Part shown: positions 1,656 to 36,018 of the stretch, piece by piece | How the letters are laid out: every line of letters begins with the position of its first letter | Numbering within the stretch: position 1 is the stretch's first letter | Assembly: GCA_963995525.1 (NCBI GenBank) | Contig: OZ023210.1 | Location: 2,972,073 to 3,036,072 of the forward strand | DNA: 64,000 nt | Source of the DNA: Escarpia spicata | Taxonomy: Eukaryota > Annelida > Polychaeta > Sabellida > Siboglinidae | Direction of reading: 5' to 3' | Notes under the pieces: model-generated | What the model saw: the letters and a program-made list of their open reading frames with translations, nothing else | Database searches by the model: none | Told to the model about the DNA's origin: nothing | Position numbers and translations under genes: made by a program

Positions 1656-1830
1656 GATACACTCATGCACACCGCATACGTACATACATGATACAACTAT
1701 ATATTGAAGTAACTTCACATTTTCCTATAAACCAAGCGTGTCTTTTTTGTGTGAGATATGTTGGTAACTGTTACCTTAACGTGACACAAGTGTTAATTCG
1801 GTGGTTCTTACAGTGTACTTTGTTTTCCAG

Positions 1831-1904
1831 ATCCTCTCCTACACATTAGTATAGATGACAGCAGGAAACTGCTGTATACATTATCAGAGAAAGGAACCAT
1901 TCAG
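1831..1904 (+). CDS. nup155: nup155 exon 1 of window
   Basis: Acceptor ttttccag|at and donor cag|gtacaa bound 74 nt (2 + 24 codons). It encodes (D)[16 protein letters not shown] followed by LSEKGTIQ, the beta-propeller strand matching DPLHISIDNSR...SEKGVIQ of vertebrate Nup155. It ends in phase 0. The preceding DNA back to base 1 is a 40-bp satellite. Confidence 0.9.
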
Positions 1905-7900: not shown

Positions 7901-10900
7901 CTGGTGTCACTTGGTGGTGACTCTGTAGCCTGTGTCACTTGGTGGTGATTGTGTAGCCTGTGTCACTTGGTGGTGATTGTGTAGCCTGTGTCACTTGGTG
8001 GTGATTGTGTAGCCTGTATCACTTGGTGGTGATTGTGTAGCCTGTGTCACTTGGTGGTGATTGTGAAGCCTGTGTCAACAGGAAACATGTTGGTGGTGAT
8101 TGTGTAGCCTGTGTCAACAGGAAACATGTTGGTGGTGATTGTGTAGCCTGTGTCAACAGGAAACATGTTGGTGGTGATTGTGTAGCCTGTGTCACCAGGG
8201 ACCATGTTGTTGGTGACTCTGTAGCCTGTGTCACCAGAGACCATGTTGTTGGTGGTGACTCTGTAGCCTGTGTCACCAGGGACCCTGTTGCTGGCAGCAG
8301 CCACTGCAGAGGATGGGGACGTGTTGTGGACGACGACTGCTGACAGTTTCCCCTTCCAACTCCACCTGCGCGAGACACACGTGAGTGCAGCTTTATTCTC
8401 ACTCTCTCATTTTGTGCTTTATAAGAGTGACACACAACATGTTCCATTGCCATTGGCGGGGTAACGTTTTATGGTCAGTCACGAGGGAGCCATCTGAGTC
8501 TGTGCAGCTGATTGAAGTTGCTGTATCAATTTATTAAATCATGAACTGCAGTTTAAGTTTTGGCATACAGCAGTGTCAACTGGCCATGGCACTCTGAAGC
8601 AGAGAGAGTAAGATCCAAGTAGTTGTCTTGGTATTTTTGCTGTGGAATGATAATATCATTGTGAAATGTTAAAGATCTATGTGGTGACATTTTGTTTTCT
8701 TATTTGATGTTACTTTGTTGATGAACATTGCACATTAAAATGTCATCTTATAAATGTTATGTTGCTGTTTTAATGGCTTTTGTCTTGTCCACTGAAGATG
8801 ACAATGGCTACAAAAGGGTGAAATAATTAATCTGTCCGTTATGTCACATGTTGCCTAGCAACCAGGTCTTTCAAAAATGTTGCCATAAATGTAAAGCTGC
8901 CAGACATTGTATTTTTCGTGGGAATTCTAGCCCCAACTTTTTCTTGGCAAAAAGGGCAAATTTGCCTAAGCGAGAACATTATATGCGGGAATGGTTAATA
9001 TGTTGTATGTATGAGGCCACTGAACTTCACTGTATGTAGGAAGAGATCCAGGATGTGTCTTGTATGTAGGAAGAGATCCAGGTCAGAGTCTGGATGTTTC
9101 TTGTATGTAGGAAGAGATCCAGGTCAGAGTCTGGATGTGTCTTGTATGTAGGAAGAGGTCCAGGTCAGAGTCTGGATGTGTCTTGTATGTAGGAACAGAT
9201 CCAGGTCAGAGTCTGGATGTGTCTTGTATGTAGGAAGCGGTCCAGGTCAGAGTCTGGATGTGTCTTGTATGCAGGAAGAGGTACAGGTCAGAGACTGGAT
9301 GTGTCTTGTATGTAGGAAGAGGTGTAAGTCAGAGTCTGGATGTTTCTTGTATGTAGGAAGAGATCCAAGTCAGAGTCTGGATGTGTCTTGTATGTAGGAA
9401 GAGGTCCAAGTCAGAGTCTGTATGTGTCTTGTATGCAGGAAGAGGTCCAGGTCAGAGTCTGGATGTGTCTTGTGTGCAGGAAGAGGTCCAGGTCAGAGTC
9501 TGGATGTGTCTTGTGTGTAGGAAGAGGTCCAGGTCAGAGTCTGGATGTGTCTTGTGTGCAGGAAGAGGTCCAGGTCAGAGTCTGGATGTGTCTTGTGTGC
9601 AGGAAGAGGTCCAGGTCAGAGTCTGGATGTGTCTTGTATGTAGGAAGAGGTCCAGGTCAGAGTCTGGATGTGTCTTGTGTGTAGGAAGAGGTCCAGGTCA
9701 GAGTCTGGATGTTTCTTGTGTGTAGGAAGAGGTCCAGGTCAGAGTCTGGATGTGTCTTGTGTGTAGGAAGAGGTCCAGGTCAGAGTCTGGATGTGTCTTG
9801 TGTGTAGGAAGAGATCCAGGTCAGAGTCTGGATGTGTCTTGTGTGTAGGAAGAGGTCCAGGTCAGAGTCTGGATGTTTCTTGTGTGTAGGAAGAGGTCCA
9901 GGTCAGAGTCTGGATGTGTCTTGTGTGTAGGAAGAGGTCCAGGTCAGAGTCTGGATGTTTCTTGTGTGTAGGAAGAGGTCCAGGTCAGAGTCTGGATGTG
10001 TCTTGTGTGTAGGAAGAGGTCCAGGTTAGAGTATGGATGTGTCTTGTGTGTAGGAAGAGGTCCAGGTCAGAGTCTGGATGTTTCTTGTGTGTAGGAAGAG
10101 ATCCAGGTCAGAGTCTGGATGTTTCTTGTATGTAGGAAGTGGTCCAGGTCAGAGTCTGGCTCCAAGCGCTTTACCCTTTACTTCCTGGCTGACCTGTTCA
10201 ATCGATCACCATCTTGACGTCTCTGGGAAGCATTGAGCCACACTGCAATAAATGCGCGAAGACTATTTGTACACAAATATCCACCACTGTCTCTAGCCAG
10301 GTACTCATTCATACAGCTAAGTGAATTGAAGCAATGTAGAGTAAACAAACTTGCCCAAGGTTCGACCCCACGCACAGGATTTGAACCCGCATTCTCTCAG
10401 TCGAGAGTCAGAGGCTCTTACAGCTGTGCTACTGCGCCCCTGCTGTGTCTTGTAGGAAGTGATGCCAATCCAGGGTCAGAGGCTCTTACAGCTGTGCTAC
10501 TGCGCCCATGCTGTGTCTTGTAGGAAGTGATGCCAATCCAGGGTCAGAGGCTCTTACAGCTGTGCTACTGCGCCCCTGCTGTGTCTTGTAGGAAGTGATG
10601 CCAATCCAGGGTCAGAGGCTCTTACAGCTGTGCTACTGCGCCCCTGCTGTGTCTTGTAGGAAGTGATGCCAATCCAGGGTCAGAGGCTCTTACAGCTGTG
10701 CTACTGCGCCCCTGCTGTGGCTTGTAGGAAGTGATGCCAATCCAGGGTCGGGCGTGGGCAATCTCGGAGATGCCGTCCTGGAGCGCTGGGAGAGATTTGT
10801 CTAATGGAGGAGACGGGAAAGGCAGACCCCCCAGCCGTCGTCACCCAACACCTTGACCCACCCAGGAAGTTTGTCCTCATGAACTCACAGGTGAGGGGAT

Positions 10901-13900
10901 CATTGTCCTTAACTCACAGGTGTGGGATCATTGTCCTTAACTCACACGTAGTGATCATTGTCCTGAATTCACAGGTGTGAAGATCATTGTCTTTAACTCA
11001 GGTGAGGAGATCATTGTCCTTAACTCACAGGTGAGGGGTCATTGTCCTTAACACACAGGTGAGGGGATCATTGTCCTTAACTCATAGGTGAGGGATCATT
11101 GTCCTTAACTCACAGGTGAGGGATCATTGTCCTTAACTCACAGGTGAGGGGATCATTATCCTTAACTCACATGTGAGGGGATCATTGTCCGTAACTCACA
11201 TGTGAGGGATCATTGTCCTTAACTTATAGGTGAGGGGATCATTGTCCTTAACTCATAGGTGAGAGATCATTGTCCTTAATTCACAGGTGAGGGATAATTG
11301 TCCTTAACTCATAGGTTTGGGGATCATTGTCCTTAATTCACAGGTGAGGGGATCATTATCCTTAACTCACATGTGAGGGATCATTGTCCCTAACTCAGGT
11401 GAGGGATCAATGTCCTTAACTCATAGGTTAGGGGATCATTGTCCTTAACTCATACAAGGGGATCATTGTCCTTAACTCACTGGTGAGGGGATCATTTTCC
11501 TTAAATCACAGGGGACGGAGTCTTGGTAATCGTCATCAAAAACAGTTAAACATTAGTATTATTTATCAAATTATTTTGTATTTTTCCATATCAGAATCCA
11601 AATGCAACATTTGACAGTGGAAGAGTCACACTGCATTGTACATGTTGATAATTGTTAACGAGTGGTCTGTGGGCAGCTCTAATGTATACCTTTGCCTCTG
11701 CAGGGCTGCTACCTCATGACGAAGCAGCAGCCAGTAGACCAGCTGCGACAGCTGCTGCTGAATGCATCCCCTGACTCGGAGCAAGTGAAGGCATTCTTCA
11801 AACTCCACCGGGTAGGTCATCCACACCCTCTCCCTCATCCACACCTTCTCCCTCATCCACACCCTCTCCCTCATCCACACCCTCTCCCTCAACCAAAACC
11901 TCTCCCTCATCCACACCCTCTCCCTCATACACACCCTCTCCCTCATCCACACCTTCTCCCTCATCCACACCCTCTCCCTCATCCACACCCTCTCCCTCAA
12001 CCACACACTCTCCCTCAACCACACCCTCTTCCTCATCCACATACTCTCCCTCATCTACACACTCTCCCTCAACCACACCCTCTCTCTTATCCACACACTC
12101 TCCCTCAACCACACCCTCTCCCTTATCCACACATTCTCTCATCCACACCCTCTCCCACATCCACACACTCTCCCTCAACCACACCATCTCCCTTATCCAC
12201 ACACTCTCCCTCAACCACACACTCTCCCTCAACCACACCCACTCCCTTATCCACACACTCCCTCATCCACACCCTCTCCGTCTCCCTCATCCACACCCTC
12301 TCCCTCATCCACACCCTCTCCCTCAACCAAAACCTCTCCCTCATCCACACCCTCTCCCTCATACACACCCTCTCCCTCATCCACACCTTCTCCCTCATCC
12401 ACACCCTCTCCCTCATCCACACCCTCTCCCTCAACCACACACTCTCCCTCAACCACACCCTCTCTCTTATCCACACACTCTCCCTCAACCACACCCTCTC
12501 CCTTATCCACACATTCTCTCATCCACACCCTCTCCCACATCCACACACTCTCCCTCAACCACACCATCTCCCTTATCCACACACTCTCCCTCAACCACAC
12601 ACTCTCCCTCAACCACACCCACTCCCTTATCCACACACTCCCTCATCCACACCCTCTCCCTCTCCCTCATCCACACACTCTCCCTCATCCACACATTCTC
12701 CCTCAACCACACCCTCTCCCTCATCCACACCCTCATCCACACACTCTCCCTCATCCACACCCTCTCCCTCATCCACACACTCTCCCTCAACCACACCCTC
12801 TCCCTCATCCACACACTCTCCCTCATCCACACATTCTCCCTCAACCACACCCTCTCCCTCATCCACACCCTCATCCACACCCTCTCCCTCATCCACACCC
12901 TCTCCCTCATCCACACCCTCTCCCTCATCCACACCCTCTCCCTCATCCACACCCTCTCCCTATCCACACCCTCTCCCTCATCCACACCCTCTCCCTCATC
13001 CACACCCTCTCCCTCATCCACACCCTCTCCCTCATACTCACCCTCTCCCTCATCCACACCCTCTCCCTCATCCACACCCTCTCCCTCATCCACACCCTCT
13101 CCCTCATCCACACCCTCTCCCTCATCCACACCCTCTCCCTATCCACACCCTCTCCCTCATCCACACCGTAGTCCACAACATTGGAACTGCTGACACCATT
13201 ATATAATATAAAACGTTACATTTGTGATATGTATCCTATAAACAGCTTCTATGATCTTGGATAATTCATGGGCAATACTTATGGCAAAGTTACAATTTAT
13301 TATAATGATTCCATTAAACCCCTGGTTATTATTAATGAAACAATGTGTTGCATTAATACACATTACGTGCCACGTCCCCATCACAATCAACGGTCCTCAT
13401 CAATGGTCCTCATCAACGGTCCTCATCACTTGAGGACAACTTCAGGAACTGTGCATAGCATCATGAACAAGTGATTTACGTTCATCTGACGTACTGTACG
13501 AATCCAAAACCCGGTAATAATCCTTAACCAATGGGGAATTTCAAAAAAAAAGTTACTTTTCTTCGGTTGTGTAATCGCTGAAGGTTTGGCATCTAAAAAG
13601 CAACGCATCTAGGAGTAAACATTGACCCGCCTCCACACCTCCATGCCTCCACACCTCCATGCCTCCACACCTCCACACCTCCATGCCTCCAAGCCTCCAC
13701 CCCTCCATGCCTCCACACCTCCATGCTACATAGGCTAGCTGGGTTAAAGTAGTAGCTGGGTGTTGATTGATGTGTGTGTTTGTAGGAACAAGCGTGTGCC
13801 ACCTGTCTAATCCTGGCTTGTAGTACTCGGGCGGTCGACAAAGAGGTGGGTCTTGTAGATGACATCACCTTCGTGTGACCTTCACAGCTCCTGTGTAGCT

Positions 13901-16900
13901 CTAAGTTAACTATCTTGCAAGGTATTCAGTAGTCGTTGAAGTTTCTTGTAGAATTTGCTAGATGTATGAATAGGCTTTTCAACTATATTTTTGTTTAAAC
14001 TTTATATTCAGTATACAAATCTTTAAAATAATTTAATATATTAGCAATGTGTAGAAAACAGCGGTTTTCTGCATTCCACAACTTTGTACCATTTCTGTAC
14101 ACTGTAGAGCTGAATAATGTTAAACTTGGCAGACTTAAAACATCGCTGTTTTGATGTGTATGATGCGCTACCAAACACCCGTCCAGCGCCATGTGTTTCT
14201 TTGTCGTCCACATCGTCATGCCTAACTGATGTTCACCATCGTCATGCCTGATTGATGTTCACCATCGTCATGCCTGATTGATGTTCACCATCGTCATGCC
14301 TGATTGATGTTCACCATTGTCATGCCTGGCTGATGTTCACCATCGTCATGCCTGGCTGATGTTCACCAGTTGGGGTCATGGTCATTACCAGTGTCTTCAT
14401 TGTTCATAGATATCAACATTACACATCTGCAACACTTCAGCCTGACTGCAGTGAAATAATGTCAACAAACATATGAGAGTATTCATTAATGAATGCTCTT
14501 CTACCCTTACCATCAATTTACGTGTATAATACGCCCCCATGTATAATATGATCCTGACTTTTGCTAACTTTTGATAGAATTTCTATATCATGTATAATAT
14601 GCACCCCGACTTTTGAGATAAAAACCCGATTTTCCCGCTTATAATATTTTGCTTGAATCCATCTGAGAATCGTAAACATGTCACCTACACAAGTTATGGC
14701 ATTGCTGCCGGCTTGTCACTTGCTAGTGACTAATGTGTACGCACTACTTAACTTGTGTTGTAGCTTGACGATTGCGCAACTGATTAAATCAGTGCGTGCT
14801 AGAACTTACATTGTGTCGTTCTGATTTCACTTTTAAATTAACACCAAGTTCTATTCTGAAATGCTACATATAAACCTGGTACTTTCAACTGCGAAGCACA
14901 CATGCACTACATTCGTCTTTATTTACATTCACAACATTTGCATTCACAATTTTAAACATGGAGTCACACTTGTAGACACTTGACCCTTGATGCGGGCATC
15001 ATTCACGTGATTCAAGAATGCCAATCATAATCATAGCGGGACGCTTCCCGGTCTCGTACGCTTCCCACTCATTGGTGTTATTCGCGAAGTCAGACATATG
15101 GGCTCTCGTCTTTTTCATTTCTCGCTGCTAGTTTAGGGCTAGAGAGGCAGTTACGGGAGTGCGATTCTTGCCTTTCGTGATAATATTACTAGTTTTCTAG
15201 CAGTGTTATCCTGGTCTACAAACATTGATAAATTGATCAGAGAAATTTAGTTTAGCCTTAGCACCATGTATAATATGCACCCCAACTTTTGAGTAAAAAG
15301 TGAAGGAAACAAATGCGTATTATACACGGAAATTTCCGGTATTTACGTTTACCTCCTCAGACTGTGACACTGATAGGGAACACCTGACTAACATGTGATC
15401 GGCTGTTAAGTTACGCAACTAAAGACAAATAGAACGAGAAACTTAGTGCTGAAATTGTCTTATTCAAATTTAGTGTCGTCATAGCGACATCGAGACGTGA
15501 CTTGTTTGTGGTTGTTCACAGGTGGTGGAGGGAGCGACCCGGGCTTACTTCCTGTATGGGGGAGAGCCGGAATGTAACTTTGCTGTGTCTGCAAGGGGAG
15601 TCAACACCATGTATAGTGAGTGACATGTGTCACCAAGACACTATTCTTGAGACATCAACAATTGTCCTGGTGGCGCACCCTGGTCATCATTTCTCAATAT
15701 GCAACATCACTGTTACAGAACAAAATCAACTTTTAAGAGCAGATTTGAGCTTATGAGCTGATAAGAACGTTAGTGAGACGGTCCCCAGAGCATTCTTATG
15801 AGCTGATAAAAATGTTAGTGAGATGTTCCCCAGAGGATTCTTATGAGCTGATAAAAATATTAGTGAGATGTTCCCCAGAGCATTCTTATGAGCTGATAAA
15901 AATGTTAGTGAGATGGTCCCCAGAGCATTCTTATGAGCTGATAAAAATGTTAGTGAGATGGTCCCCAGAGCATTCTTATGAGCTGATAAAAATGTTAGTG
16001 AGATGGTCCCCAGAGCATTCTTATGAGCTGATAAAAATGTTAGTGAGATGGTCCCCAGAGCATTCTTATGAGCTGATAAAAATGTTAGTGAGATGGTCCC
16101 CAGAGCATTCTTATGAGCTGATAAAAATGTTAGTGAGATGTTCCCCAGAGCATTCTTATGAGCTGATAAAAATGTTAGTGAGATGTTCCCCAGAGCATTC
16201 TTATGAGCTGATAAAAATGTTAGTGAGATGGTCCCCAGAGCATTCTTATGAGCTGATAAAAATGTTAGTGAGATGGTCCCCAGAGCATTCTTATGAGCTG
16301 ATAAAAATGTTAGTGAGATGGTCCCCAGAGCATTCTTATGAGCTGATAAAAATGTTAGTGAGATGGTCCCCAGAGCATTCTTATGAGCTGATAAAAATGT
16401 TAGTGAGATGGTCCCCAGAGCATTCTTATGAGCTGATAAAAATGTTAGTGAGATGGTCCCCAGAGCAGTCTTATGAGCTGATAAAAATGTTAGTGAGATG
16501 GTCCCCAGAGCATTCTTATGAGCTGATAAAAATGTTAGTGAGATGGTCCCCAGAGCATTCTTATGAGCTGATAAAAATGTTAGTGAGATGGTCCCCAGAG
16601 CATTCTTATGAGCTGATAAAAATGTTAGTGAGATGGTCCCCAGAGCATTCTTATGAGCTGATAAAAATGTTAGTGAGATGGTCCCCAGAGCATTCTTATG
16701 AGCTGATAAAAATGTTAGTGAGATGGTCCCCAGAGCATTCTTATGAGCTGATAATAATGTTAGTGAGATGGTCCCCAGAGCATTCTTCAGTGTCATTATT
16801 TTATTCCACGTTAATCTTCATGTAATTGCGTAGTGTGGTATAACTATTCAAGGGTAAATACTGATTTTAGCTCTGTGAAATTCTATTCATGTCTGTGATG

Positions 16901-28900: not shown

Positions 28901-31900
28901 TTTCAAACTATAACCAAAGAAGTTATGGCAAATGCTGGAAAGCCTCGGAACTTTGTCTCAGCATAAAACTAAGCCAGGGAGTATAGGACTCGATATCAAT
29001 AACGACATTTTTTTTGATAAGTCAATAGTATCTGAGCATTTTAACAATTATTTTACTAACCAAGTAGACTGTAATGGTAAATATGAAGGGCAACACATCC
29101 AAGACTTCTACAGGTCACTGGGTGTCACCTGTAATAGTTTCTGTTTAGTGAAGTCAATGAGAACAAAGTACTACGTATTCTTAGCAAACTAAACTCAAAC
29201 AAGGCAACTGGTCTGGATCTATTGTCACCCAGATTTATTAAGGATGGTGCCAGGCTCATTGCGTCTTCTTTGACACATTTTAAATTTATCTTTGTCCACT
29301 GGCGAAATTCCAGAAGATCTTAAATCAGCAAGGTGTTGCCCAAGGGTGATTACAGGCCGATCTCGATTCTAAATATGATCTCGAAATTATTTGAGAGGAT
29401 CGTGTATCAACAGCTGGACGAGTATCTCAAAGCATATCAGCTCCTATATGAGCAACATCAGCTCCTATATGAGCAACATCAACTCCTATATGAGCAACAA
29501 CAGCTCCTATATGAGCAACATCAGCTCCTATATGAGCAACATCAGCTCCTATATGAGCAACATCAGATCCTATATGAGCAACATCAGATCCTATATGAGC
29601 AACATCAGATCCTATATCAGCAACATCAGCTCCTATATCAGCAACACCAGCTCTTATATGAGCAACACTAGCTCCTATATCAGCAACATCAGCTCCTATT
29701 TGAGCAACATCAGTTCCTATATCAGCAACATCAGCTCCTATATCAGCAACACCAGGTCCTATATGAGCAACATCAGATCCTATATGAGCAACATCAGCTC
29801 CTATATCGGCAACATCAGCTCCTATATGAGCAACATCAGCTCCTATATCAGCAACATCAGATCCTATATCAGCATCAGTCTCAATCTAGATCCTTCTATT
29901 CTACCGAAACATGTTTAATACTTCTCATAGACTTCTTAAAACTGGAGTAAGATAAATGTAATTCTATAGATATGGTGCTTTTTGACGTTCAATCAGTTGA
30001 AATTGGTGGTACCTTATTGAAACCGATGACTGTCACATGTGGTGTACCTCAAGGGTTAATTCTCGGACCCTTACTGTTTCTAATATATATTAATGATATT
30101 TCATCGGCTGTTCGCTTCAAACTTCTTTTGTACGCTGACAATTTGGCCCTCATAGTTTCGGGTAAGATCACCCAACACATCCAAGAAAGTGTCTCTTCGG
30201 AGCTTGAGGCAGCCAGCAACATCAGCTCCTATATGAGCAACACCAGCTCCTATATGAGCAACATCAGCTCGTGTATGAGCAACATCAGTTCCTATATGAG
30301 CAACATCAGCTCCTATATCAGCAACATCAGCTCCTATATGAGCAACATCAGCTCATATATCAGCAACATCAGCTCCTATATCAGCAACATCAGCTCCTAT
30401 ATCAGCAACATCAGATCCTATATCAGCAACATCAGCTCCTATATCAGCAACACCAGCTCCTATATGAGCAACACCAGCTCCTATATGAGCAACACCAGCT
30501 CCTATATGAGCAACACCAGATCCTATATCAGCAACACCAGCTCCTATATGAGCAACACCAGGTCCTATATGAGCAACACCAGATCCTATATGAGCAACAC
30601 CAGCTCCTATATGAGCAACATCAGCTCCTGTATCAGCAACATCAGCTCCTATATGAGCAACATCAGCTCCTATATCAGCAACATCAGATCCTATATCAGC
30701 ATCAGTCTCATTCTAGATCCTTCTATTCTACCGAAACATGTTTAATACTTCTCATAGACTTCTTAAAACTGGAGTAAGATAAATGTAATTCTATAGATAT
30801 GGTGCTTTTTGACCTTCAATCAGTTGAAATTGGTGGTACCTTATTGAAACCGATGACTGTCACATGTGGTGTACCTCAAGGGTTAATTCTCGGACCCTTA
30901 CTGTTTCTAATATATATTAATGATATTTCATCGGCTGTTCGCTTCAAACTTCTTTTGTACGCTGACAATTTGGCCCTCATAGTTTCGGGTAAGAACACCC
31001 AACACATCCAAGAAAGTGTCTCTTCGGAGCTTGAGGCAGCCAGAGAATGGCTGATAAATAACAAACTGTCCCTCCATTTAGGCAAAACTGAATCAATTCT
31101 TTTTGGATCAAAACGTAAACTGCACACATGCAACTCCATCCAGGTGAAATGTGCTGGCAACACATTGACGTGTCAGACGCATGTTAAATACCTTTAATGT
31201 TAAGTACCTCGGTGTAGAGTTAGATCAGTCACTAACTGGAGGAGTGGCTGAGAAGATAATTTGTAAATCAAATGCTAAGTTAACATTCTTGTACAGGCAA
31301 ACAAGAAATGTCAACATGAAAACAAAAACACTTCTTACCTCTAATTCGAAACTTTCATTTTTCATATCCAAGAATCATGTTAAATTACCTGGTAGAGGCT
31401 TTCGTTGACGTGTCACGTCGACTTCATCAGTACCTATGACGCTGAATGACGTCATCGTACACGTGAGGCAGTTCGTAATTGCCCTCGTCTCTGTTGATGG
31501 GTGTTTGGGTTTTTCTGATCCAGATGGCTTCCTTGATTTGCCGAATTCTTCTGTTGGGTTCTTTGTCAACAATTTTCACTCCCTCCCAGTCTATGATATG
31601 GTTTTCAGTTGTCGCATGGTCTGTAAGGGCGGATTTATTGATGGTAGACATCAATCTTTTTTTTCCGCTCCTTGTGTATTTCTCATTTTTCGTGTTGTCT
31701 ACGTCCTTTCTGTGTTCCTCCAGTCTGGTTTTGAGTAGTCTTCCTGTCTCCCCAATGTATTCCCCACCACAATTCTTGCACGGTATTTGGTACACCAGTT
31801 TGCCCTGTTCTTCTAGCTGTACTTTGTCCTTGGGATGTACCAACAGGTGTCTGAGGGTGGTGTGGGGACGCATGGCCGTTGCTACTCCATATTTTTTCAG

Positions 31901-34900
31901 TACTCGATGTACTCTCTCCGATACCCCCTCTATGTATGGGATGACTACTTGGCTCCGATAGATTTTGTCCTTAGTCTTTTTGTTGGTCTTTTTCTTCTTA
32001 CTGCTATCTGTCGCCTTTTTCAAGGCCCACGACGGATAGCCACATACTCTTAGAGCTCCTCTCAGGTGTTCCACCTCTTCTTTCTTGTCCCCCTCCTCCG
32101 AAGTTATTGTCTCACACCTGTTCATAAGGGTTTTGACAACTCCCAACTTCTGATGTTTGGGGTGGTGGGATGCAAAATTCAGGTATTGGTCAGTGTGCGT
32201 CTTCTTCCTGTACACTGTGGACTTCACACTGCCATCTTCCTTTCTGGTGAACTTTGCATCCAAGAAGGGCATGCTGTTGTTCTCTTCGTCTTCCCGTGTG
32301 AAAATGATGCTACCTGTGGGGTCTACAGTGTTCATGTGTTGTTGTAATTTCTTTGCCTTTCCTGTGTGTACCAGGCAAATTACATCGTCCACATATCGCT
32401 TCCAGTTTCTCGGTTGGCAATCGACTGGTGCTGTGGCTATGATTTTCTGCTCCAGGTCCTCCATGTACAGGTTCACAACAATGGGGGACACTGGACTGCC
32501 CATGGCTACCCCAAACTTCTGTTGGTAAATTTCTCCTCCAAATCTGAAGTATGTCGTCTCCAAGACAAATTTCAACAACTCCATGATGTCGTCTACGTTT
32601 ATATTTGTTCTCTTCTTTAGTGTCTTGTCATTCTCTAGTCTTTTTCTGATGACTTTGCAAGCTTCTCTGATTGGGGTCTTCGTGAACAGTGACACAACGT
32701 CATATGACACAAATGATTCTCCTTCTTCCATTCTCAGCTTTGTCATTTCTTTCACCAATTCTTGTGAATTTTCCGTATGGTGTTCTGTTTTTCCAACAAG
32801 TGGTTGTAGTATGTTGGCCAATTCTCTGGATACTCTGTATGCTATTGTCTGTGTGTAGTCGACAATTGGTCTGAGTGGCACCTTCTCCTTGTGGATTTTT
32901 GGTGATCCATACATCCGTGGTACTTTTTCTAGCGTAGGATATAAGTACCAGTACTGATCTTTGGTGATCTTCCCCTCCTTCTCCAAGGAATTTACCATTC
33001 TGATGAGTTCTGCCTTATATTTCTTGGTCAAACACCCATCAACAGAGACGAGGGCAATTACGAACTGCCTCACGTGTACGATGACGTCATTCAGCGTCAT
33101 AGGTACTGATGAAGTCGACGTGACACGTCAACGAAAGCCTCTACCAGGTAATTTAACATGATTCTTGGATATGAAAAATGAAAGTTTCGAATTTGAAAAC
33201 GAACTATCCTGAAGAATGTTCAGTAAACTTCTTACCTCTGTCTTAATACAATGTCATTTTGACTATGCCTGTTCATCATGGTTCTCGGGTTTAACCAAGA
33301 AATATAAAACTAGACTACAGTGCACCCAGAACAAGGTAATCCGTTTCCTTCTTAATGCACCAGCCAGAACCCACATTGGATCAACAGAGTTTAGACAGGT
33401 CAACATGTTACCAGTGGATCTACGGGTTAAGCAACTAAAATTGAACCTTGTCTATAATATTGTCAATGACAGAGCACCGATTTATTTGTCCGATTCTTTC
33501 AACGTAACACGCAAGCAGCATGGTATAAATACAAGATTTAGTACTTTGTCTCTTCATGTGACGTATGTTAAATCTTTCGGTCAAACTTCTTTTTACTACA
33601 CAGACATGGAATGAATTGCCATATAACATACAAGGTGCTACGAACAAGAACCAATTTAAACATTTAGTCAAACAGTTTTTGTTCAATTACCTTAATGATC
33701 ATTAAGCCAGCACAGTTGTTTACTTTTAATTCATCGTATTTTTGAGGGACATGTATTTTATGTTTCATTTTTTATTGATTACGCATCTTTTGTAAAAAGT
33801 TTTTAATTTAAAAACTGGTATGTATTTGTAGTACATGAGTCGGTTTTTCAAATGACTTAATAATGCTTATAATCAGGAGGTAATCTCCCTCCCTTAATAT
33901 TACAATTATCAAGGTCTTTTGACATCTGAACAGTAACTAGTATTTGTTTATTATTGTTGTTTTAGTATGTTATTTTGTTATATTCTATTAATATATGTCT
34001 CATGTATTTGTCTGTGTCTGTCCAAGGACCACAATGGAGACAAGTGCTGCACTTTCTTGTGTCATCCTTTATATTTAATGTAACCTGTATTTATATTTTA
34101 TGTGTACAAGCTGACACTTTATATGGAATAAATCAATCAATAGTTGTTCATGGTCATTGTGACTTTGTGTTGTAGTTGTTCATGGTCATTGTGACTTTGT
34201 GTTGTAGTTGTTCATGGTCATTGTGACTTTGTGTTGTAGTTGTTCATGGTCATTGTGACTTTGTAGGTGTAGCTGTTCATGGTCATTGTGACTTTGTTTT
34301 GTAATTGTTCATAGTCATTGTGATTTTGTTTTGTAGTTATTCATAGTCATTGTGATTTTGTCTTGTAGTTGTTCAAAGACGTTGCAGCCGAGTTAGACCT
34401 GCCGACTGTGTGTAACCAGTTCGCGGCGGTTGGCTTCTACTCTGGCATCGTGGAATTGACATTGACTGCATCAAAGAAGAGAGACCTGCAATGTTGGGGC
34501 CTGCACTTCTACAAGAATGGGGAGCCACCCACTGACTCCCAGGGCCTCATTGCCTACAGCAACAGGTGAACTAACCTTAAGCCTCTCACTCCCAGGGCCT
34601 CATTGCCTACAGCAACAGGGGAACTAACCTTAACCCTCTCACTCCCAGGGCTTCATTGCCTACAGCAACAGGTGACCTAACCTTAACCCTCTCACTCCCA
34701 GGGCCTCATTGCCTACAGCAACAGGTGAACTAACCTTAACCCTCTCATACTCAGGGCATCATTGTCTACAGCAACAGGTGAAGTAACCTTAACCCTTTCA
34801 CTCCCAGGGCCTCATTGTCTACACCAACAGGTGAAGTAACCTTAACCCTCTCACTCCCAGGGCCTCAGTGCCTTCAGCAACAGGTGAAGTAACCTTAACC

Positions 34901-35627
34901 CTCTCACTCCCAGGGCCTCATTGCCTTCAGCAACAGGTGAAGTAACCTTAATCCTCTCACAAGGCATATGACCACATTTTACCTACAGCATTGCCGAGGT
35001 GAAGAAGAGATGTGTTTGTTGACAGAATGGACTGCTACAAGTGTATCACGGAGACCCTCAACTACCTGCTGTCAGCCAGTCAGTCCCACCCCCACGCCCC
35101 CAGCGTACCCAAGCTGCCCGGTCCACTGCAGGTCACTGACGATCCCAACAGACTGGCCAACAGTTTGAGGACTTCACGAATGTGTGGTCCAGTCACCCTT
35201 GAGTCTTACAAAAAACATCCAGCTTCACCCCTTTGGGGCCCAACAAAACCTCCACTTACACCCCTGAGGCTTAACAAAACACCAAACTGCATCCTCCTGA
35301 GGTTCAACAAAACCTCCAAGTGCATCCCTTTTGATGCCAAGATAGAGGGGCATACACACGATCAGCCCTGGTTATTGTCTCGTTTTCTACTCTACCTTGC
35401 CCAGTACTCTTTGCAAGACCCACTTTCTGTTTCCGTCCTTGTGCTTAGTAACTCTTCTCTTGTTTTGGAGAACATCTTCACCCGTATGTGCATTGAGTTG
35501 CATGAAACATTTCTGTTGTGTTTAGTCAGAGGAAGTATTCCGCCTCTCGTTGAGGTCTGATGACGAGCTCTTCCACGTGGCCCTCTACGACTGGCTCATC
35601 AACAAGAATCTCTCTGAGAAGTTACTT
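1831..35627 (+). CDS. nup155: nup155 gene, partial (about 21 exons)
   Basis: This is the spliced coding region of nucleoporin 155, a scaffold of the inner ring of the nuclear pore at the nuclear envelope. Conceptual exons follow vertebrate Nup155 in order: [13 protein letters not shown] and [11 protein letters not shown] (beta-propeller), [31 protein letters not shown], then the solenoid segments [36 protein letters not shown] and [14 protein letters not shown]. Most exon phases join without conflict. The start lies before the window. No match to the last ~450 residues of the family was seen after 35,627. Exons 6 and 17 have lengths that break frame (163 and 130 nt), and the exon 20/21 boundary is unclear. 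The gene may be functional with assembly indels, may continue beyond b9d1 in a very long intron, or may be a decaying copy. Identity is certain from the sequence; intactness is not. Confidence 0.9.
2233..2695 (-). mobile_element. non-autonomous hAT-like element, copy 1
   Basis: 463 bp bounded by inverted ends cagggatgaga / tctcatccctg, a hAT-type CAGGG terminus. The six bases aaaaca occur on both sides, a possible degraded 8-bp target duplication. It carries a non-coding tract shared, in opposite orientation, with 42,500-42,795. It sits in the intron between nup155 exons 1 and 2. Confidence 0.7.
2885..2976 (+). CDS. nup155: nup155 exon 2
   Basis: 92 nt between catgacag|ctg and gccag|gtgagt. 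It encodes [15 protein letters not shown] then [15 protein letters not shown], matching VYDLGQDGQGMSRVASVSQ of the family. It starts in phase 0 and leaves AG, completed to Arg by the next exon. Confidence 0.9.
3197..4045. repeat. GT-rich minisatellite
   Basis: About 850 bp of gtgtgtccatgtgtgtctgt variants (roughly 14-28-bp period) ending 40 bp before exon 3. Long open frames on both strands (Cys/Val or His/Thr) are by-products of the period, not genes. Confidence 0.95.
4086..4183 (+). CDS. nup155: nup155 exon 3
   Basis: 98 nt between ttccatag|a and act g|gtgagt. It encodes [18 protein letters not shown] then [14 protein letters not shown], matching TIDRSVFKPIVQIAVI of vertebrate Nup155. Both boundary phases agree with the neighbouring exons. 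Confidence 0.9.
4533..4682 (+). CDS. nup155: nup155 exon 4
   Basis: 150 nt, acceptor tttgcag|ga and donor aag g|gtatgg. It encodes [18 protein letters not shown], then [15 protein letters not shown] and HIAHYRKG. This is one of the most conserved parts of the family (GVRLYFSTCPF, HVRLPPGFSAS) and the strongest single proof of gene identity. Confidence 0.95.
5772..6334. repeat. 28-bp tandem array
   Basis: About 20 copies of cttaccttgtgtggccctg + tataacaat in the exon 4-5 intron. The unit shows no resemblance to the flanking splice sites. Confidence 0.97.
6398..6847. repeat. minisatellite containing copies of the exon 5 acceptor (distal block)
   Basis: Interleaved units gcctgtgtcacttggtggt and tgtcaccagggaccatgttg. 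Four units hold tgtcaccag/ag + gaccatgttg, corresponding to exon 5's tgtcaccag|ggaccctgttg. The block is separated from the proximal block by an unrelated ~1.05-kb insertion. Confidence 0.85.
6848..7902. other. ~1.05-kb insertion splitting the exon 5 acceptor array
   Basis: Non-repetitive DNA interrupting the minisatellite. Both ends contain gcatttaccggtattt and gggaaaaac motifs, and the right end reads ggtgggaaaaacgtgccaac then cctgg, whose complement starts ccagggttggcacg like hAT termini. The left terminus does not mirror it clearly, so a decayed DNA transposon is only a suggestion. No coding potential seen. Confidence 0.4.
7903..8279. repeat. minisatellite containing copies of the exon 5 acceptor (proximal block)
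   Basis: Units run directly into the exon 5 acceptor. Successive units carry tgtcaacag|gaaacatgttg (3 copies), then tgtcaccag|ggaccatgttg and tgtcaccag|agaccatgttg, before the real tgtcaccag|ggaccctgttg. The exon edge is thus part of the repeat. Confidence 0.92.
8280..8380 (+). CDS. nup155: nup155 exon 5
   Basis: 101 nt, acceptor tgtcaccag|gg and donor acac|gtgagt. It encodes [16 protein letters not shown] then [15 protein letters not shown], matching ILLMAASENEDNDILW...DTFPFQKPMMETQ. The acceptor and first ~12 coding bases form the template for the minisatellite just upstream (about 6,400-6,847 and 7,903-8,279). Confidence 0.9.
9036..10160. repeat. 41-bp array related to the exon 6 acceptor
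   Basis: About 27 copies of a 41-bp unit: cttgtgtgtaggaagaggtc + caggtcagagtctggatgtgt. The segment cttgt..tag|gaag..gg resembles exon 6's cttgtag|gaagtgatgcc, so this looks like an older, diverged copy of the same junction. Confidence 0.85.
10185..10440 (-). mobile_element. tRNA-derived SINE, copy 1
   Basis: On the - strand a tRNA-like head shows an A-box-like tagcacagctgtaag and B-box-like gggttcaaatcc, followed by a body containing cttgggcaag and ttgaatgagtacctgg-type sequence (reverse of ccaggtactcattcatacag). A second copy lies at 35,852-36,018. The head sits immediately upstream of the exon 6 acceptor region. Confidence 0.8.
10441..10727. repeat. 68-bp array made of SINE head + exon 6 acceptor + exon start
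   Basis: Four pseudo-acceptors cttgtag|gaagtgatgcc at 10,455, 10,523, 10,591 and 10,659 precede the real one at 10,727, at exactly 68-bp spacing. Each unit is about 22 bases of exon 6 (gaagtgatgccaatccaggg) joined to the SINE head (gaggctcttacagctgtgct) and then the acceptor. The join has a short ggtc/agtc similarity, as expected for a tandem duplication through microhomology. Confidence 0.93.
10728..10890 (+). CDS. nup155: nup155 exon 6, apparent +1 frameshift
   Basis: Acceptor tcttgtag|gaa and donor tcacag|gtgagg. The first part reads [15 protein letters not shown] (family DGHSWALSAIDE). The last part reads [16 protein letters not shown] then VLMNSQ (family [22 protein letters not shown]), but in a different frame. 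Flanking exons require phase 0 at both ends, yet the exon is 163 nt, one base too long. The shift probably lies near the ggga/gagag run around 10,785-10,800. Sequencing error and a real inactivating insertion are both possible. Confidence 0.85.
10882..11515. repeat. 29-bp array of the exon 6 donor junction
   Basis: Exon 6 ends aactcacag|gtgagggg and about 20 copies of aactcacag|gtgagggg + atcattgtcctt follow. The unit contains the last nine coding bases, the donor and 20 intronic bases. Many copies keep the perfect CAG|GTGAGG donor. Confidence 0.95.
11704..11811 (+). CDS. nup155: nup155 exon 7
   Basis: 108 nt (36 codons), acceptor ctctgcag|ggc and donor caccgg|gtaggt. It encodes [18 protein letters not shown] then [17 protein letters not shown], matching GSLMFHKLRPVDQLRHLL...FFKLHQ. 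The long CTCATCCACACC array begins six bases after the donor. Confidence 0.95.
11817..13170. repeat. 18-bp array (ctcatccacaccctctcc)
   Basis: About 1.35 kb starting six bases after the exon 7 donor. A larger duplication is visible: the cacattctctcatccacacc variant at 12,130 recurs at 12,510, giving a ~380-bp higher-order period. Long open frames on both strands are artefacts of the 18-bp period. Confidence 0.97.
13383..13725. repeat. two small arrays
   Basis: Three copies of aacggtcctcatca (13,383-13,430), and further on about six copies of cctccacacctccatg (13,627-13,725), both in the exon 7-8 intron. Single-copy DNA without visible genes lies between them. Confidence 0.85.
13786..13845 (+). 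CDS. nup155: nup155 exon 8
   Basis: 60 nt, acceptor ttgtag|gaa and donor aaagag|gtgggt. It encodes [20 protein letters not shown], nearly identical to family [21 protein letters not shown]. Phase 0 at both ends. Confidence 0.95.
14211..14366. repeat. 26-bp array
   Basis: Six copies of catcgtcatgcctgattgat + gttcac in the exon 8-9 intron. Confidence 0.93.
14508..15341. mobile_element. non-autonomous DNA transposon with ~27-bp TIRs
   Basis: Left end taccatcaatttacgtgtat + aatacgc; the complement of the right end is taccggaaatttccgtgtat + aatacgc, 21 of 27 bases matching. Subterminal copies of atgtataatatgcacccc lie near both ends in direct orientation. No open frame inside. Superfamily not identified. 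Confidence 0.7.
15522..15615 (+). CDS. nup155: nup155 exon 9
   Basis: 94 nt, acceptor gttcacag|gtg and donor tat a|gtgagt. It encodes [17 protein letters not shown] then [14 protein letters not shown], matching SAWATRAFFRYGGEAQ of vertebrates. It ends in phase 1, completed by exon 10. Confidence 0.88.
15745..16790. repeat. 45-bp array
   Basis: About 23 nearly identical copies of ttatgagctgataaaaatgt + tagtgagatggtccccagag + cattc. Because 45 is divisible by three, ~350-codon open frames appear on both strands; homogeneity and strand symmetry argue against coding. The unit part atgttagtgag resembles exon 9's donor atgtatagtgag. Confidence 0.97.
17086..17142 (+). CDS. nup155: nup155 exon 10
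   Basis: 57 nt, acceptor acttgcag|at and donor gga g|gtgaat. It encodes (N)[18 protein letters not shown], the low-complexity Ser/Gly/Pro linker seen in Nup155 between propeller and solenoid. Support comes from phase agreement on both sides and composition, because this linker is poorly conserved. Confidence 0.65.
17165..17899. repeat. minisatellite containing the exon 11 acceptor
   Basis: Units gtgacatgtttgaccggtg + tgtgtctgtaggtcat repeat to the exon 11 acceptor, which itself reads gtttgaccggtgtgtctag|gt. Every unit therefore carries a tgtgtctgtag|gt pseudo-acceptor. Confidence 0.88.
17900..18053 (+). CDS. nup155: nup155 exon 11
   Basis: 154 nt. Acceptor tgtgtctag|gt was chosen over the downstream ccccag because only it fits the phase left by exon 10. 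Donor is cattctcag|gtgtg. It encodes [16 protein letters not shown], then [19 protein letters not shown] and LSRILR, matching [21 protein letters not shown]. The 3' edge (SRILR codons plus donor) is the template of a 16-copy array. The 5' acceptor region resembles the upstream array. Confidence 0.9.
18054..18605. repeat. 36-bp array of the exon 11 donor junction
   Basis: Sixteen donors cattctcag|gtgtg (one cattcttag|gt) from 18,054 to 18,594 at exactly 36-bp spacing. Each unit has 16 coding bases for SRILR, the donor and 20 intronic bases. Read-through stays open in the exon frame, adding 12 residues ([12 protein letters not shown]) per unit. Confidence 0.97.
18638..20379. repeat. 46-bp array of the exon 12 acceptor junction
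   Basis: About 38 copies of gccactgtggggtgtgttct + gtcctgactgtacttgttgt + tgccag, ending at the true acceptor ttgttgccag|gccactgtgggg of exon 12. Nearly all copies keep cag or tag before gcc. Confidence 0.97.
20380..20440 (+). CDS. nup155: nup155 exon 12
   Basis: 61 nt, acceptor ttgttgccag|g and donor tat|gtaagt. In phase it reads (R)[20 protein letters not shown]. This aligns without gaps to [20 protein letters not shown] of vertebrate Nup155 (W, V, E, SG conserved). Its acceptor and first ~12 bases are repeated about 38 times upstream. Confidence 0.8.
20441..21125. other. intron stretch without genes
   Basis: Mostly single-copy DNA. Bases 20,660-20,880 contain several cgtttt/aaaacg inverted motifs (e.g. 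tttttcgttttgaaa and gaatgaaaaaggaaaaagc), possibly a decayed palindromic transposon; no open frame or clear termini. Confidence 0.4.
21138..22660. repeat. 24-bp array derived from the exon 13 acceptor, with an inverted patch
   Basis: About 60 copies of ttctttctgtcaccaactaa + tgag. Junction-like gtcctcagctgatgag occurs at the first unit (21,148), mid-array (21,774) and at the real acceptor (22,653). Bases ~21,845-21,912 are the inverted complement of ~21,771-21,835, making a near-palindrome inside the array. Confidence 0.93.
22661..22771 (+). CDS. nup155: nup155 exon 13
   Basis: 111 nt (37 codons), acceptor tgtcctcag|ctg and donor gaaag|gtattg. It encodes [18 protein letters not shown] then [19 protein letters not shown], matching [25 protein letters not shown]. 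The junction gtcctcag|ctgatgag is the apparent source of the 24-bp array before it. Confidence 0.9.
22991..23794. mobile_element. pogo/Tigger-like MITE
   Basis: Perfect 18-bp TIRs cagtgcaacacgcttata / tataagcgtgttgcactg, with repeated inner motifs such as cgaattnacag and ataacga. A TA follows the right end. CAGTnnAAC...TATAACGAA-type ends are typical of pogo/Tigger elements. The short - strand frame with KSSIDA may be a transposase remnant. Confidence 0.8.
23899..23959 (+). CDS. nup155: nup155 exon 14
   Basis: 61 nt. Acceptor caccaccag|agg is preferred over ttgtag 23 bases upstream because it alone preserves phase 0. Donor is caa g|gtaagt. It encodes [20 protein letters not shown]. The end matches QQELQRKFH of the family. 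Confidence 0.75.
24342..24475 (+). CDS. nup155: nup155 exon 15
   Basis: 134 nt, acceptor tttttgtag|ca. It encodes [20 protein letters not shown] then [19 protein letters not shown] and CAALSA, matching [28 protein letters not shown]. The phase-compatible donor is the weak gcg|gttggt. A better-looking gtaact four bases later would break frame with exon 16. Confidence 0.9.
24591..24855. repeat. ~33-bp array
   Basis: About eight copies of ttgctgtgctgtgtactta + tatattggttgtgt in the exon 15-16 intron. Confidence 0.93.
25110..25333. repeat. ~27-bp array
   Basis: About nine copies of atggtcatgatacaggggtg + ttgttac in the exon 15-16 intron. Confidence 0.9.
25529..25588 (+). CDS. nup155: nup155 exon 16
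   Basis: 60 nt, acceptor cattgtag|gat and donor gcgag|gtaggc. It encodes [20 protein letters not shown], matching [20 protein letters not shown]. Phase 0 on both sides. Confidence 0.9.
25999..26080. repeat. 22-bp array
   Basis: Four copies of ttgacggaggtcacgcactag + g in the exon 16-17 intron. Confidence 0.85.
26222..26670. repeat. 17-bp array abutting the exon 17 acceptor
   Basis: Units tgtgtgacttgtgacat and tgtgtaacttgtaacac run up to cttgtgacattgttacag|atc. The polypyrimidine side of the acceptor is part of the array, but the exon edge is not visibly repeated. Confidence 0.9.
26672..26801 (+). CDS. nup155: nup155 exon 17, apparent 2-nt deletion
   Basis: Acceptor gttacag|atc and donor tccaag|gtaggg. 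The first 11 codons match only as ISRVLIQS, then the match jumps frame to [37 protein letters not shown] (family [21 protein letters not shown]...DAICSK). The length of 130 nt is two short of a phase-0 exon. Loss of one CT from cagtctcatc would explain it. Assembly slippage or a real lesion are both possible. Confidence 0.88.
26822..27540. repeat. ~720-bp polypyrimidine (CTT/CTC) tract
   Basis: Almost pure ttc/tcc on the + strand beginning 21 bases after the exon 17 donor. Mirror-symmetric polypurine-polypyrimidine DNA can form triplex (H-DNA). Poly-Leu, poly-Ser, poly-Arg and poly-Glu open frames here are not genes. Confidence 0.97.
27538..27752. repeat. 23-bp array
   Basis: Nine copies of tgtcagctccggtgttgagc + acc before exon 18. 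Confidence 0.93.
27786..27863 (+). CDS. nup155: nup155 exon 18
   Basis: 78 nt, acceptor gctttcag|ggc and donor ctacag|gtcagt. It encodes [13 protein letters not shown] then [13 protein letters not shown], aligned with [26 protein letters not shown]. Phase 0 at both ends. Confidence 0.85.
28135..28785. repeat. 32-bp array of the exon 19 acceptor (distal block)
   Basis: Units ttgttcatggtcattgtgac + tttgtcttgtag contain ttgtag|ttgttca, copying exon 19's cttgtag|ttgttcaaag. The array is broken by the nested LINE/Penelope insertion and resumes at 34,138. Confidence 0.92.
29430..29880. repeat. 21-bp in-frame minisatellite inside LINE RT (first block)
   Basis: About 21 copies of ctcctatatgagcaacatcag. 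In the LINE frame they read LLYEQHQ, continuous with upstream EYLKAY and downstream [15 protein letters not shown]. The repeat therefore looks like an expansion of an RT segment (LLYEHQ-type) in multiples of 7 codons. Confidence 0.93.
30214..30710. repeat. 21-bp in-frame minisatellite (second block)
   Basis: About 23 copies of the same 21-bp unit, joined abruptly after gaggcagcca and followed by a second copy of the LINE segment that follows the first block. This indicates an ~830-bp tandem duplication mediated by the array. Confidence 0.93.
31391..31434 (-). ncRNA. hammerhead-ribozyme-like motif (left flank)
   Basis: Exact inverted counterpart of the right-flank motif (same 44 bases on the - strand, the coding strand of the Penelope frame), located in the element's 3' region. 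Confidence 0.72.
31427..33100 (-). CDS. Penelope-like RT with GIY-YIG endonuclease
   Basis: 557 codons without interruption. The protein copies RNA into DNA and nicks target DNA. Visible motifs in order: YGSPKIHK and [50 protein letters not shown] (catalytic DD), [11 protein letters not shown], then [19 protein letters not shown] with LEEHRKDV (GIY-YIG nuclease with Cys pair), and the usual C-terminal [16 protein letters not shown]. The first ~24 residues ([14 protein letters not shown]...) are read from the inverted 3' repeat, so the original N-terminus is missing (full family members are longer). RT and nuclease domains look intact. The ATG is probably an accident of the inversion. Confidence 0.93.
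   Translation of the reverse strand: MTLNDVIVHVRQFVIALVSVDGCLTKKYKAELIRMVNSLEKEGKITKDQYWYLYPTLEKVPRMYGSPKIHKEKVPLRPIVDYTQTIAYRVSRELANILQPLVGKTEHHTENSQELVKEMTKLRMEEGESFVSYDVVSLFTKTPIREACKVIRKRLENDKTLKKRTNINVDDIMELLKFVLETTYFRFGGEIYQQKFGVAMGSPVSPIVVNLYMEDLEQKIIATAPVDCQPRNWKRYVDDVICLVHTGKAKKLQQHMNTVDPTGSIIFTREDEENNSMPFLDAKFTRKEDGSVKSTVYRKKTHTDQYLNFASHHPKHQKLGVVKTLMNRCETITSEEGDKKEEVEHLRGALRVCGYPSWALKKATDSSKKKKTNKKTKDKIYRSQVVIPYIEGVSERVHRVLKKYGVATAMRPHTTLRHLLVHPKDKVQLEEQGKLVYQIPCKNCGGEYIGETGRLLKTRLEEHRKDVDNTKNEKYTRSGKKRLMSTINKSALTDHATTENHIIDWEGVKIVDKEPNRRIRQIKEAIWIRKTQTPINRDEGNYELPHVYDDVIQRHRY
33102..33145 (+). ncRNA. hammerhead-ribozyme-like motif (right flank)
   Basis: Core ctgatga, stem II gtcgacgt-gac-acgtcaac (7 pairs and one C.A mismatch), cgaaa, a minimal stem III loop, then cleavage-type ctc before tacc, which pairs with ggta ahead of the core as stem I. 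This is the type I, short-stem-III hammerhead layout known from Penelope-like elements. One extra A follows the ctgatga box. Confidence 0.72.
34138..34368. repeat. 32-bp array of the exon 19 acceptor (proximal block)
   Basis: About seven copies of tagttgttcatggtcattgt + gactttgtgt, ending in the true acceptor tcttgtag|ttgttcaaagac. Pseudo-acceptors ttgtag|ttgttca keep the first seven exon bases. Confidence 0.95.
34369..34565 (+). CDS. nup155: nup155 exon 19
   Basis: 197 nt, acceptor tcttgtag|ttg and donor caacag|gtgaac. It encodes [20 protein letters not shown], then [31 protein letters not shown] and GLIAYSNR, matching [20 protein letters not shown]...GLHFYKHGEP. Both edges are templates of tandem arrays: the acceptor side (32 bp) and the donor side (53 bp). 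Confidence 0.95.
34536..34965. repeat. 53-bp array of the exon 19 donor junction
   Basis: Eight copies of ctcccagggcctcattgcct + acagcaacag|gtgaac + taaccttaaccctctca. The first 30 bases are the end of exon 19 (SQGLIAYSN) and the rest is intron start. Read-through of the first donor meets tga at once, so only the first donor yields a continuing frame. Confidence 0.96.
35026..35162 (+). CDS. nup155: nup155 exon 20 (3' end uncertain)
   Basis: Acceptor ttgacag|a completes Arg from exon 19. It encodes [18 protein letters not shown], then [20 protein letters not shown], matching LNSYKCITDTL...SPSVPKKPGP...DPNMLSN. After NRLAN no strong donor exists. The listed end uses a weak gtttga. A shifted frame reads QFEDFTN before gtgtgg, which resembles the family HHFEQ, so a small indel here is possible. 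Confidence 0.8.
35526..35627 (+). CDS. nup155: nup155 last recognisable exon (21)
   Basis: After tgtgtttag the sequence reads [16 protein letters not shown] then [18 protein letters not shown], matching [29 protein letters not shown]. Similarity stops at 35,627, and the open frame ends at a tag 24 bases later. Only weak donors (gttact inside the Lys codon, or gtgtat) are available. No later Nup155 exon was recognised in the window. Confidence 0.8.
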
Positions 35628-35851
35628 ATACTCCTAAGCTGGTGTATTTAGGTGGGCATTAGGCCATGGATGCCCCCTTTCATAAATATGTTTTTAATTA
35701 TTGTTAGCTAATTGTGAAACCATAATAACACCATTATATATTGAATTTAGTATGGCTTATTCCTGTTGTTAATATTTTACTTGTCAACTATGTTAAAGCT
35801 TTAATTAAGTGGGTTAATGCAAAATAGCTGTACATATAAAATACTTTATAT

Positions 35852-36018
35852 CCACAACTGTCTAATCCCAGGTACTCATTCATACAGCAGAGTGACCTGG
35901 AGCAACATAGAGTTAACAAACTTGTCCAAGGTTTGACACTGCAGCACAGGATTCAAACCTGGGTTCTCTCGGTCGAGAGTCTGAAGCTCTAGCTACTGCT
36001 CCACTGCGCTCCGCTCCA
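35852..36018 (-). mobile_element. tRNA-derived SINE, copy 2
   Basis: - strand tRNA-like head (agtagctagagcttcagactc, cccaggtttgaatcctg) and body shared with copy 1, including the reverse of ccaggtactcattcatacag. The 3' part is shorter than in copy 1. Confidence 0.8.

Follow-up and report, generated by a model that had tools for sequence, protein, structure and literature searches.

Intronic tandem arrays that cross splice junctions are present in six of the eight genes of this annelid that were examined (NUP155 and seven myosins), and they do so more often than random placement predicts. Their repeat unit contains the edge of an exon together with the splice dinucleotide and adjacent intron sequence, and the copy adjoining the coding exon is the exon edge called by protein homology. 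We consider it probable that these arrays are mirages that began as local tandem duplications over splice junctions and underwent anchored re-expansion from a preserved exon copy.

Junction-crossing arrays in a repeated NUP155 copy

The window, the whole 64,000-nucleotide stretch analysed here, is C6:2972073-3036072 of a 1.06-Gb genome in 1097 contigs. The mitochondrial COX1 of that genome (translation table 5) is 94% identical to an ENA protein and 86% to a cluster labelled Siboglinidae, and the next named entries among the 120 matches listed are annelids at no more than 78%; we take the genome for that of a siboglinid annelid. Exons in the window were placed with a custom spliced protein-to-DNA profile aligner, with nine NUP155 relatives as guide. 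The identification comes from matches to human NUP155 (the window's first five exons, best E 5.5e-60) and, for the joined exons, to NUP155 of other animals; the same aligner places two further NUP155 exons upstream of the window, in locus L055. GT-AG borders were obtained for 116 of 116 introns in the eight genes, a figure that the aligner almost imposes by construction. The last base aligning to NUP155, position 35627, lies in the middle of exon 21, and in the remaining window sequence no C-terminal exon was recovered by the spliced aligner. The reading frame breaks at 10806, in exon 6, and, judged by eye, a second time in exon 17.

Much of this DNA recurs in the genome. Positions 33900-36400 are found at at least 39 other places (from the best 40 scored of 6,683 candidates) with main matches of 97-99%, and the right end of every main match among those 39 places corresponds to window position 35627; positions 23700-28290 are found at at least 25 further places (from the best 26 scored of 4,391 candidates) at 90-100% identity. 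When a Priapulus NUP155 query was compared with the genome, the best 40 scored of 631 candidates were all exon 19. The segment 23700-35627 is a truncated NUP155 with its introns inside a large repeat, the exon 19-21 part of which is present at 39 or more other sites, spread over several chromosomes and numerous small contigs. Because many copies end at 35627, the frame is broken and the C-terminal exon was not found, we take the window's NUP155 to be one member of a large repeat bearing a truncated NUP155 and not a clean single-copy gene; the first-pass annotation had treated it as one ordinary nup155 gene. Two arrays not at junctions, at 24586-24858 and 25996-26083, have extra copies in many genomic copies of the locus.

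One related copy stands out, at C4:284 kb. By eye, its exon 19 differs from that of the window at 2 of 197 nt and encodes a proline at a position that is leucine in the window and likewise proline in the shark and Mya relatives; this copy may belong to the complete NUP155 gene. It carries both exon-19 arrays, acceptor and donor, which makes the arrays older than the split of the copies.

Nine arrays cross the 44 junctions of the 22 NUP155 introns (eight within the window and one starting 45 bp before it), reaching 7-39 exonic nt past the exon edge. The features are as follows, in window coordinates:

1831..35627, + strand: NUP155-like exons 1-21 (window numbering), from the spliced alignment, which ends inside exon 21
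1..1656, + strand: 40-bp array (starting at L055:9956), distal part of a donor mirage; crosses donor L055:9964 with 9 exonic nt; GT intact in 18 of 43 copies
6441..6797, + strand: rows of the exon-5 acceptor family in intron 4, with 57- and 94-bp units, from the array list and unit alignment
7904..8294, + strand: 28- and 39-bp arrays; the 39-bp one crosses the exon-5 acceptor (exon start 8280) with 15 nt; AG in 6 of 6 copies
9051..10159, + strand: 41-bp array; has the acceptor core of exon 6 in common with the 68-bp array by eye only, unflagged by the junction-alignment test
10159..10440, + strand: dispersed SINE-like repeat; its last ~33 nt supply the first half of the 68-bp unit
10407..10749, + strand: 68-bp array; crosses the exon-6 acceptor (exon start 10728) with 22 nt; AG in 5 of 5 copies
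10882..11512, + strand: 29-bp array; crosses the exon-6 donor (exon end 10890) with 9 nt; GT in 21 of 21 copies; 77% of intron 6
17201..17895, + strand: intron-10 array; unit aligns over the exon-11 acceptor (exon start 17900), and the array stops short of it
18038..18605, + strand: 36-bp array; crosses the exon-11 donor (exon end 18053) with 16 nt; GT in 16 of 16 copies
18635..20396, + strand: 46-bp array; crosses the exon-12 acceptor (exon start 20380) with 17 nt; AG in 36 of 38 copies
21167..22669, + strand: 24/48-bp array; crosses the exon-13 acceptor (exon start 22661) with 9 nt; AG in only 2 of 31 copies
28306..28790, + strand: distal part of the exon-19 acceptor array family, separated from the rest by retroelement insertions at about 28790-34120
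34141..34375, + strand: 32-bp array; crosses the exon-19 acceptor (exon start 34369) with 7 nt; AG in 7 of 8 copies
34527..34960, + strand: 53-bp array; crosses the exon-19 donor (exon end 34565) with 39 nt; GT in 7 of 8 copies

The first-pass annotation had named nine splice edges as lying within arrays, and eight of them are indeed crossed by one. The ninth, the exon-11 acceptor, is reached by unit alignment only: the best-scoring row of the intron-10 array, 17201-17841, ends 58 nt before exon 11, and a weaker row continues to 17895, 4 nt short of it, while the unit aligns over the acceptor junction with a score of 34 against at most 22 at 30 control junctions. The further proposal that the arrays arose independently, each with its own unit, survives in part. 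Units do differ between junctions, but the four rows of intron 4 are one acceptor-derived family and those of intron 18 are one family split by retroelements. Intron 11 is an extreme case, 99% of it being made up of its 36-bp donor array and 46-bp acceptor array.

Two other segments deserve description. The nested retroelements within the exon-19 acceptor array family (28790-34120) include a reverse-transcriptase element, and the first element holds a 21-bp array; on the minus strand there is a frame with RVT_1, a GIY-YIG match just below the cut-off and inverted arms of 168 nt, from which we infer a Penelope-like element. At 5774-6334, the minus strand of a 28-bp array resembles an acceptor plus a donor (ACAG, AAG/GTAAGA).

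Myosin genes and the test against chance

Seven myosin genes, M1 to M7 (94 introns, 188 junctions), were taken from the hit list of a myosin-head search and not by their arrays. M1 to M3 were chosen before any myosin array had been seen, and M4, M6 and M7 without an array seen beforehand; an array of M5 (loci L026 and L033) had, however, been seen before that gene was taken, and the count was therefore repeated without it. Arrays were called with TRF, leaving out those with a period below 15 or fewer than 1.9 copies and, among overlapping rows, all except the best-scoring one. Also left out were predicted exons shorter than 16 nt and an M4 exon call at 29124-29174, which lies inside an array (28427-30000) running to the end of its stretch; an M6 array that opens its stretch (1-185) was not scored as crossing. 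Over the modelled part, the frame is open in M1 to M5 and M7, and M6 has one frame break. The 188 junctions carry 12 crossing arrays (M1 2, M2 0, M3 2, M4 4, M5 2, M6 2, M7 0), so that M1, M3, M4 and M5 are open-frame genes, as far as modelled, with crossing arrays. The largest case is intron 7 of M4 (C4, about 68.64-68.66 Mb), where 150 copies of a 46-bp unit containing the acceptor and 13 exonic nt fill 95% of a 7.4-kb intron.

Under a random-placement null, in which each array is moved at random within its own intron and its unit is allowed into the exon, 12 of the 78 intronic arrays of the myosins cross a junction vs 5.0 expected (P 0.002). The corresponding counts are 9/33 vs 2.9 for NUP155 (P 0.0002) and 21/111 vs 7.9 for all eight genes (P 3e-6), the latter comprising 11 arrays on the donor and 10 on the acceptor side; the first-pass claim that exon edges enter array units more often than chance, on both sides, is borne out by this count. 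For the myosins, a circular-shift null again gives 5.0 expected (P 0.003) and exon-avoiding gene-wide placement gives 6.0 (P 0.014). Leaving M5 aside, the count is 10/67 vs 4.4 (P 0.006; circular shift P 0.007). Since NUP155 had been selected for its arrays, the myosin figures, with their roughly two-fold excess, are the trustworthy ones. Scored by alignment, units matched over a junction of their own intron, with a score of at least 24 and above 30 control junctions, in 30 of the 111 arrays; a control junction reached 24 for 4 of the 111.

Could this excess come about with no special process, from gene choice and few samples, in a genome where minisatellites are everywhere in introns and junctions are unprotected? 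Arrays make up as much as 69% of intron sequence (M4; 1% in M2 and M7), and their coverage falls from 42% deep in introns to about 10% at the junction and to nil at the 2,947 positions lying 40-60 nt inside exons, so that arrays as such are scarcer near junctions than deep in introns. M1 to M3 alone give 4/41 vs 1.8 (P 0.09), and an earlier four-gene test (period cut-off 9) gave 4/49 vs 1.9 outside NUP155 (P 0.11). A genome-wide search for donor pairs 24-54 bp apart returned 395 matches vs 278 in a reversed control, a weak signal in which many of the listed matches come from single arrays, and at a 15-bp period there was no excess (22 matches vs 65 in the reversed control); such a pattern seems unable to discriminate, donors with the exact consensus being too rare. 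These points lean towards an ordinary origin, but the myosins depart from chance under all three nulls, the departure persists without M5 under both nulls applied, and NUP155 departs more strongly still. We therefore consider it unlikely that no special process is involved.

Crossing arrays go with longer introns (median 1360 vs 776 bp, P 0.004), a difference that includes the length of the array itself. M2 (C6:35258001-35278000) and M7 (C13:30535001-30545000) are almost without arrays. The 30 single-exon loci L009-L038, kept outside the counts, add one independent crossing donor, in a C3-type myosin family; their other crossing arrays repeat those of M1, M4 and M5. Elsewhere, a sequence with weak similarity to the adaptin family is repeated at intervals of about 65 kb at C6:13.8-14.3 Mb and occurs again on many small contigs.

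The excess is concentrated in particular arrays. In the eight genes, 11 of 34 arrays with at least 10 copies cross a junction vs 2.5 expected, whereas those with fewer than 3.5 copies show no junction excess (2/44 vs 2.3; Fisher P 0.0016 for the contrast); the myosins alone give 6/19 vs 1.5 and 2/40 vs 2.0, respectively. The ratio is largest in arrays with a match of at least 95% (5/27 vs 1.2), and there is little excess in degenerate arrays with a match below 85% (5/39 vs 3.1). The exonic share of the unit averages 0.39 and is slightly off uniform (KS P 0.02).

These contrasts bear on the possibility that splice junctions are hot spots of breakage or replication stress, linked for example to R-loops or co-transcriptional splicing, whose repair duplicates the junction. 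The excess of crossing arrays, at its greatest among well-matched ones, the involvement of donor and acceptor sides alike and the not quite uniform exonic share would all suit such hot spots. Duplication aimed at junctions should, however, be visible in low-copy arrays, the closest available proxy for newly born ones, and its absence there speaks against targeted breakage, the splice-site-centred cause that the first-pass annotation had listed among the possible ones; we regard this explanation, too, as improbable. We read the excess in high-copy arrays instead as the outcome of expansion from, or retention at, a conserved seed on a constrained exon edge. The low-copy class includes old degenerate pairs, so that its missing excess is not clean evidence about array births; moreover, the small excess in degenerate arrays is contrary to pure retention, and the exonic share is contrary to a purely random start.

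Look-alike splice sites and the history of the arrays

A single real site can stand beside up to about 150 look-alikes. The splice dinucleotide is kept in 329 of 403 copies examined, a count that includes the genuine copies and in which a 7-kb array was read only over the 4 kb next to its exon. The real site is equalled or outscored by at least half of the remaining copies in 11 of 21 arrays. Two large arrays have lost most of their dinucleotides, namely that of the exon-13 acceptor (2/31 intact) and that of donor L055:9964 (18/43). Use of a strong look-alike site would cause a frameshift in 227 of 370 cases and introduce an in-frame stop in 126; the other 17 would stay open, 15 of them in the 36-bp exon-11 donor array (15/15 open). 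Two general rules were considered and rejected: that units preserve the frame and are translated, as 353 of 370 look-alikes shift the frame or bring a stop, with the exon-11 donor array as the exception; and that look-alike sites are selected against, as most arrays keep them.

It is very unlikely, in our judgement, that the arrays are retained because spare splice sites buffer or regulate splicing. Intact dinucleotides in most arrays and the high scores of many inner copies fit such a role, but the frame shifts and stops that nearly all strong look-alikes would cause, the loss of dinucleotides in the two large arrays and the decay of myosin copies do not.

Several loci act as natural experiments on how the arrays changed. 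One donor mirage is common to six myosin loci of the C3 type, which lie on C3 and on small contigs and are either paralogues or uncollapsed haplotypes. Its exon copy is identical at 44 of 44 positions in all six loci, whereas inner copies match the exon copy at 29-39 of 44 positions, with donor sites partly decayed; unit numbers differ among the loci, and in some of them units resemble fusions of two neighbours. In this family, then, inner copies vary in number and decay, and the exon copy does not.

In NUP155, the 68-bp unit at exon 6 consists of the last ~33 nt of the dispersed SINE-like repeat, the acceptor and 22 exonic nt; since it joins the tail of a dispersed repeat to the exon-6 acceptor, this array formed in place after the insertion. 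In the window the exon-19 acceptor array comprises 7.3 units; the second copy, on C4, has 11 or more. Across the at least 39 other places, 21 have an acceptor stretch shorter than that of the window by 32 bp (one unit) and nine by 96 bp (three units); of the remainder, five are shorter by 29-33 bp and four differ otherwise. Array length is thus unstable, with whole-unit differences between genomic copies and different unit numbers among myosin loci. An assembly artefact, which the exon-6 frame break and the many copies of the locus might suggest, can be set aside with near certainty, as the array copies carry distinct variants, and the order of these variants recurs in separate genomic places (the window and locus L057; the six myosin loci).

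Probable anchored re-expansion and the relation to known mirages

We envision that each array would start with a local tandem duplication across a splice junction. The outermost copy would be the one spliced, as the protein homology of the adjoining exon suggests, helped by the full exon with its enhancers and partner site, and the inner copies would be tolerated as intron. Kept intact by selection, the outermost copy would serve as a durable seed for renewed growth of the array by slippage or unequal exchange. Such anchored re-expansion would yield a high-copy excess at junctions without junction-targeted breakage, together with longer introns. Against this explanation, the excess outside NUP155 is about two-fold and rests on seven genes.

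The closest known systems are the mirages of amphioxus. According to the globin paper, those of Adh3 and the globins BflGb6 and BflGb9 are minisatellite-like tandem copies of the exon-intron boundary, on the 5' and the 3' side, in which many copies have intact AG/GT, length differs between haplotypes and splicing is regular by RT-PCR (PMC3087553). The suggestion in the first-pass annotation that arrays on both sides go beyond amphioxus falls with this, as both boundaries had already been reported there. The likeness is otherwise close: the arrays described here are tandem minisatellites with units that fall between tens of bp and about 160 bp (TRF), the unit spans the exon-intron boundary (in 21/111 arrays by position, 30/111 by alignment), many but not all copies keep AG/GT and array length is unstable. 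Units measure 20-118 bp here vs 150-160 in the amphioxus globins and 10-72 in Adh3. The host is an annelid and not a chordate; copy number reaches 150, entire introns are built of such copies, and six of the eight genes examined have them. RT-PCR support for normal splicing belongs to amphioxus, whereas the present arrays are known from DNA sequence; likewise, somatic instability is a feature of the Adh3 mirages, and the present data come from one assembly.

Two other systems are more distant. In the potato RdRp gene, a tandem duplication over an intron-exon boundary carried the splice signals along (PMC4974935); there, one duplication created a new intron, whereas the present arrays lie within existing introns. 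Intron 1 of an earthworm metallothionein gene contains long tandem repeats with a mean monomer of about 180 bp (PMC12783039), which resemble the present arrays in being long minisatellites in an annelid intron; the passages on these repeats make no mention of a splice junction inside the unit. A literature search over titles and abstract openings, with subscription journals mostly outside it, found no report of annelid mirages. The arrays are the amphioxus-type mirage, known on both sides, now in another phylum and apparently on a larger scale.

Two introns, intron 11 of NUP155 and intron 7 of M4, consist almost wholly of copies of their own splice sites. Tentatively, and as a bolder proposal that we hold with less than even confidence, junction amplification anchored on a conserved exon edge might be a main engine of intron growth in this lineage, with introns re-seeded from their own splice sites to the near-exclusion of anything else and the spliceosome picking the outermost site among tens to hundreds. 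Open-frame genes that hold between a few and 150 nearly identical donor or acceptor sites offer a natural test of how the spliceosome chooses the true site among neighbours bearing the same signals, and equally of how introns lengthen. As junction-spanning minisatellites of the lancelet type now occur in a second phylum, the process may operate generally in genomes rich in minisatellites.
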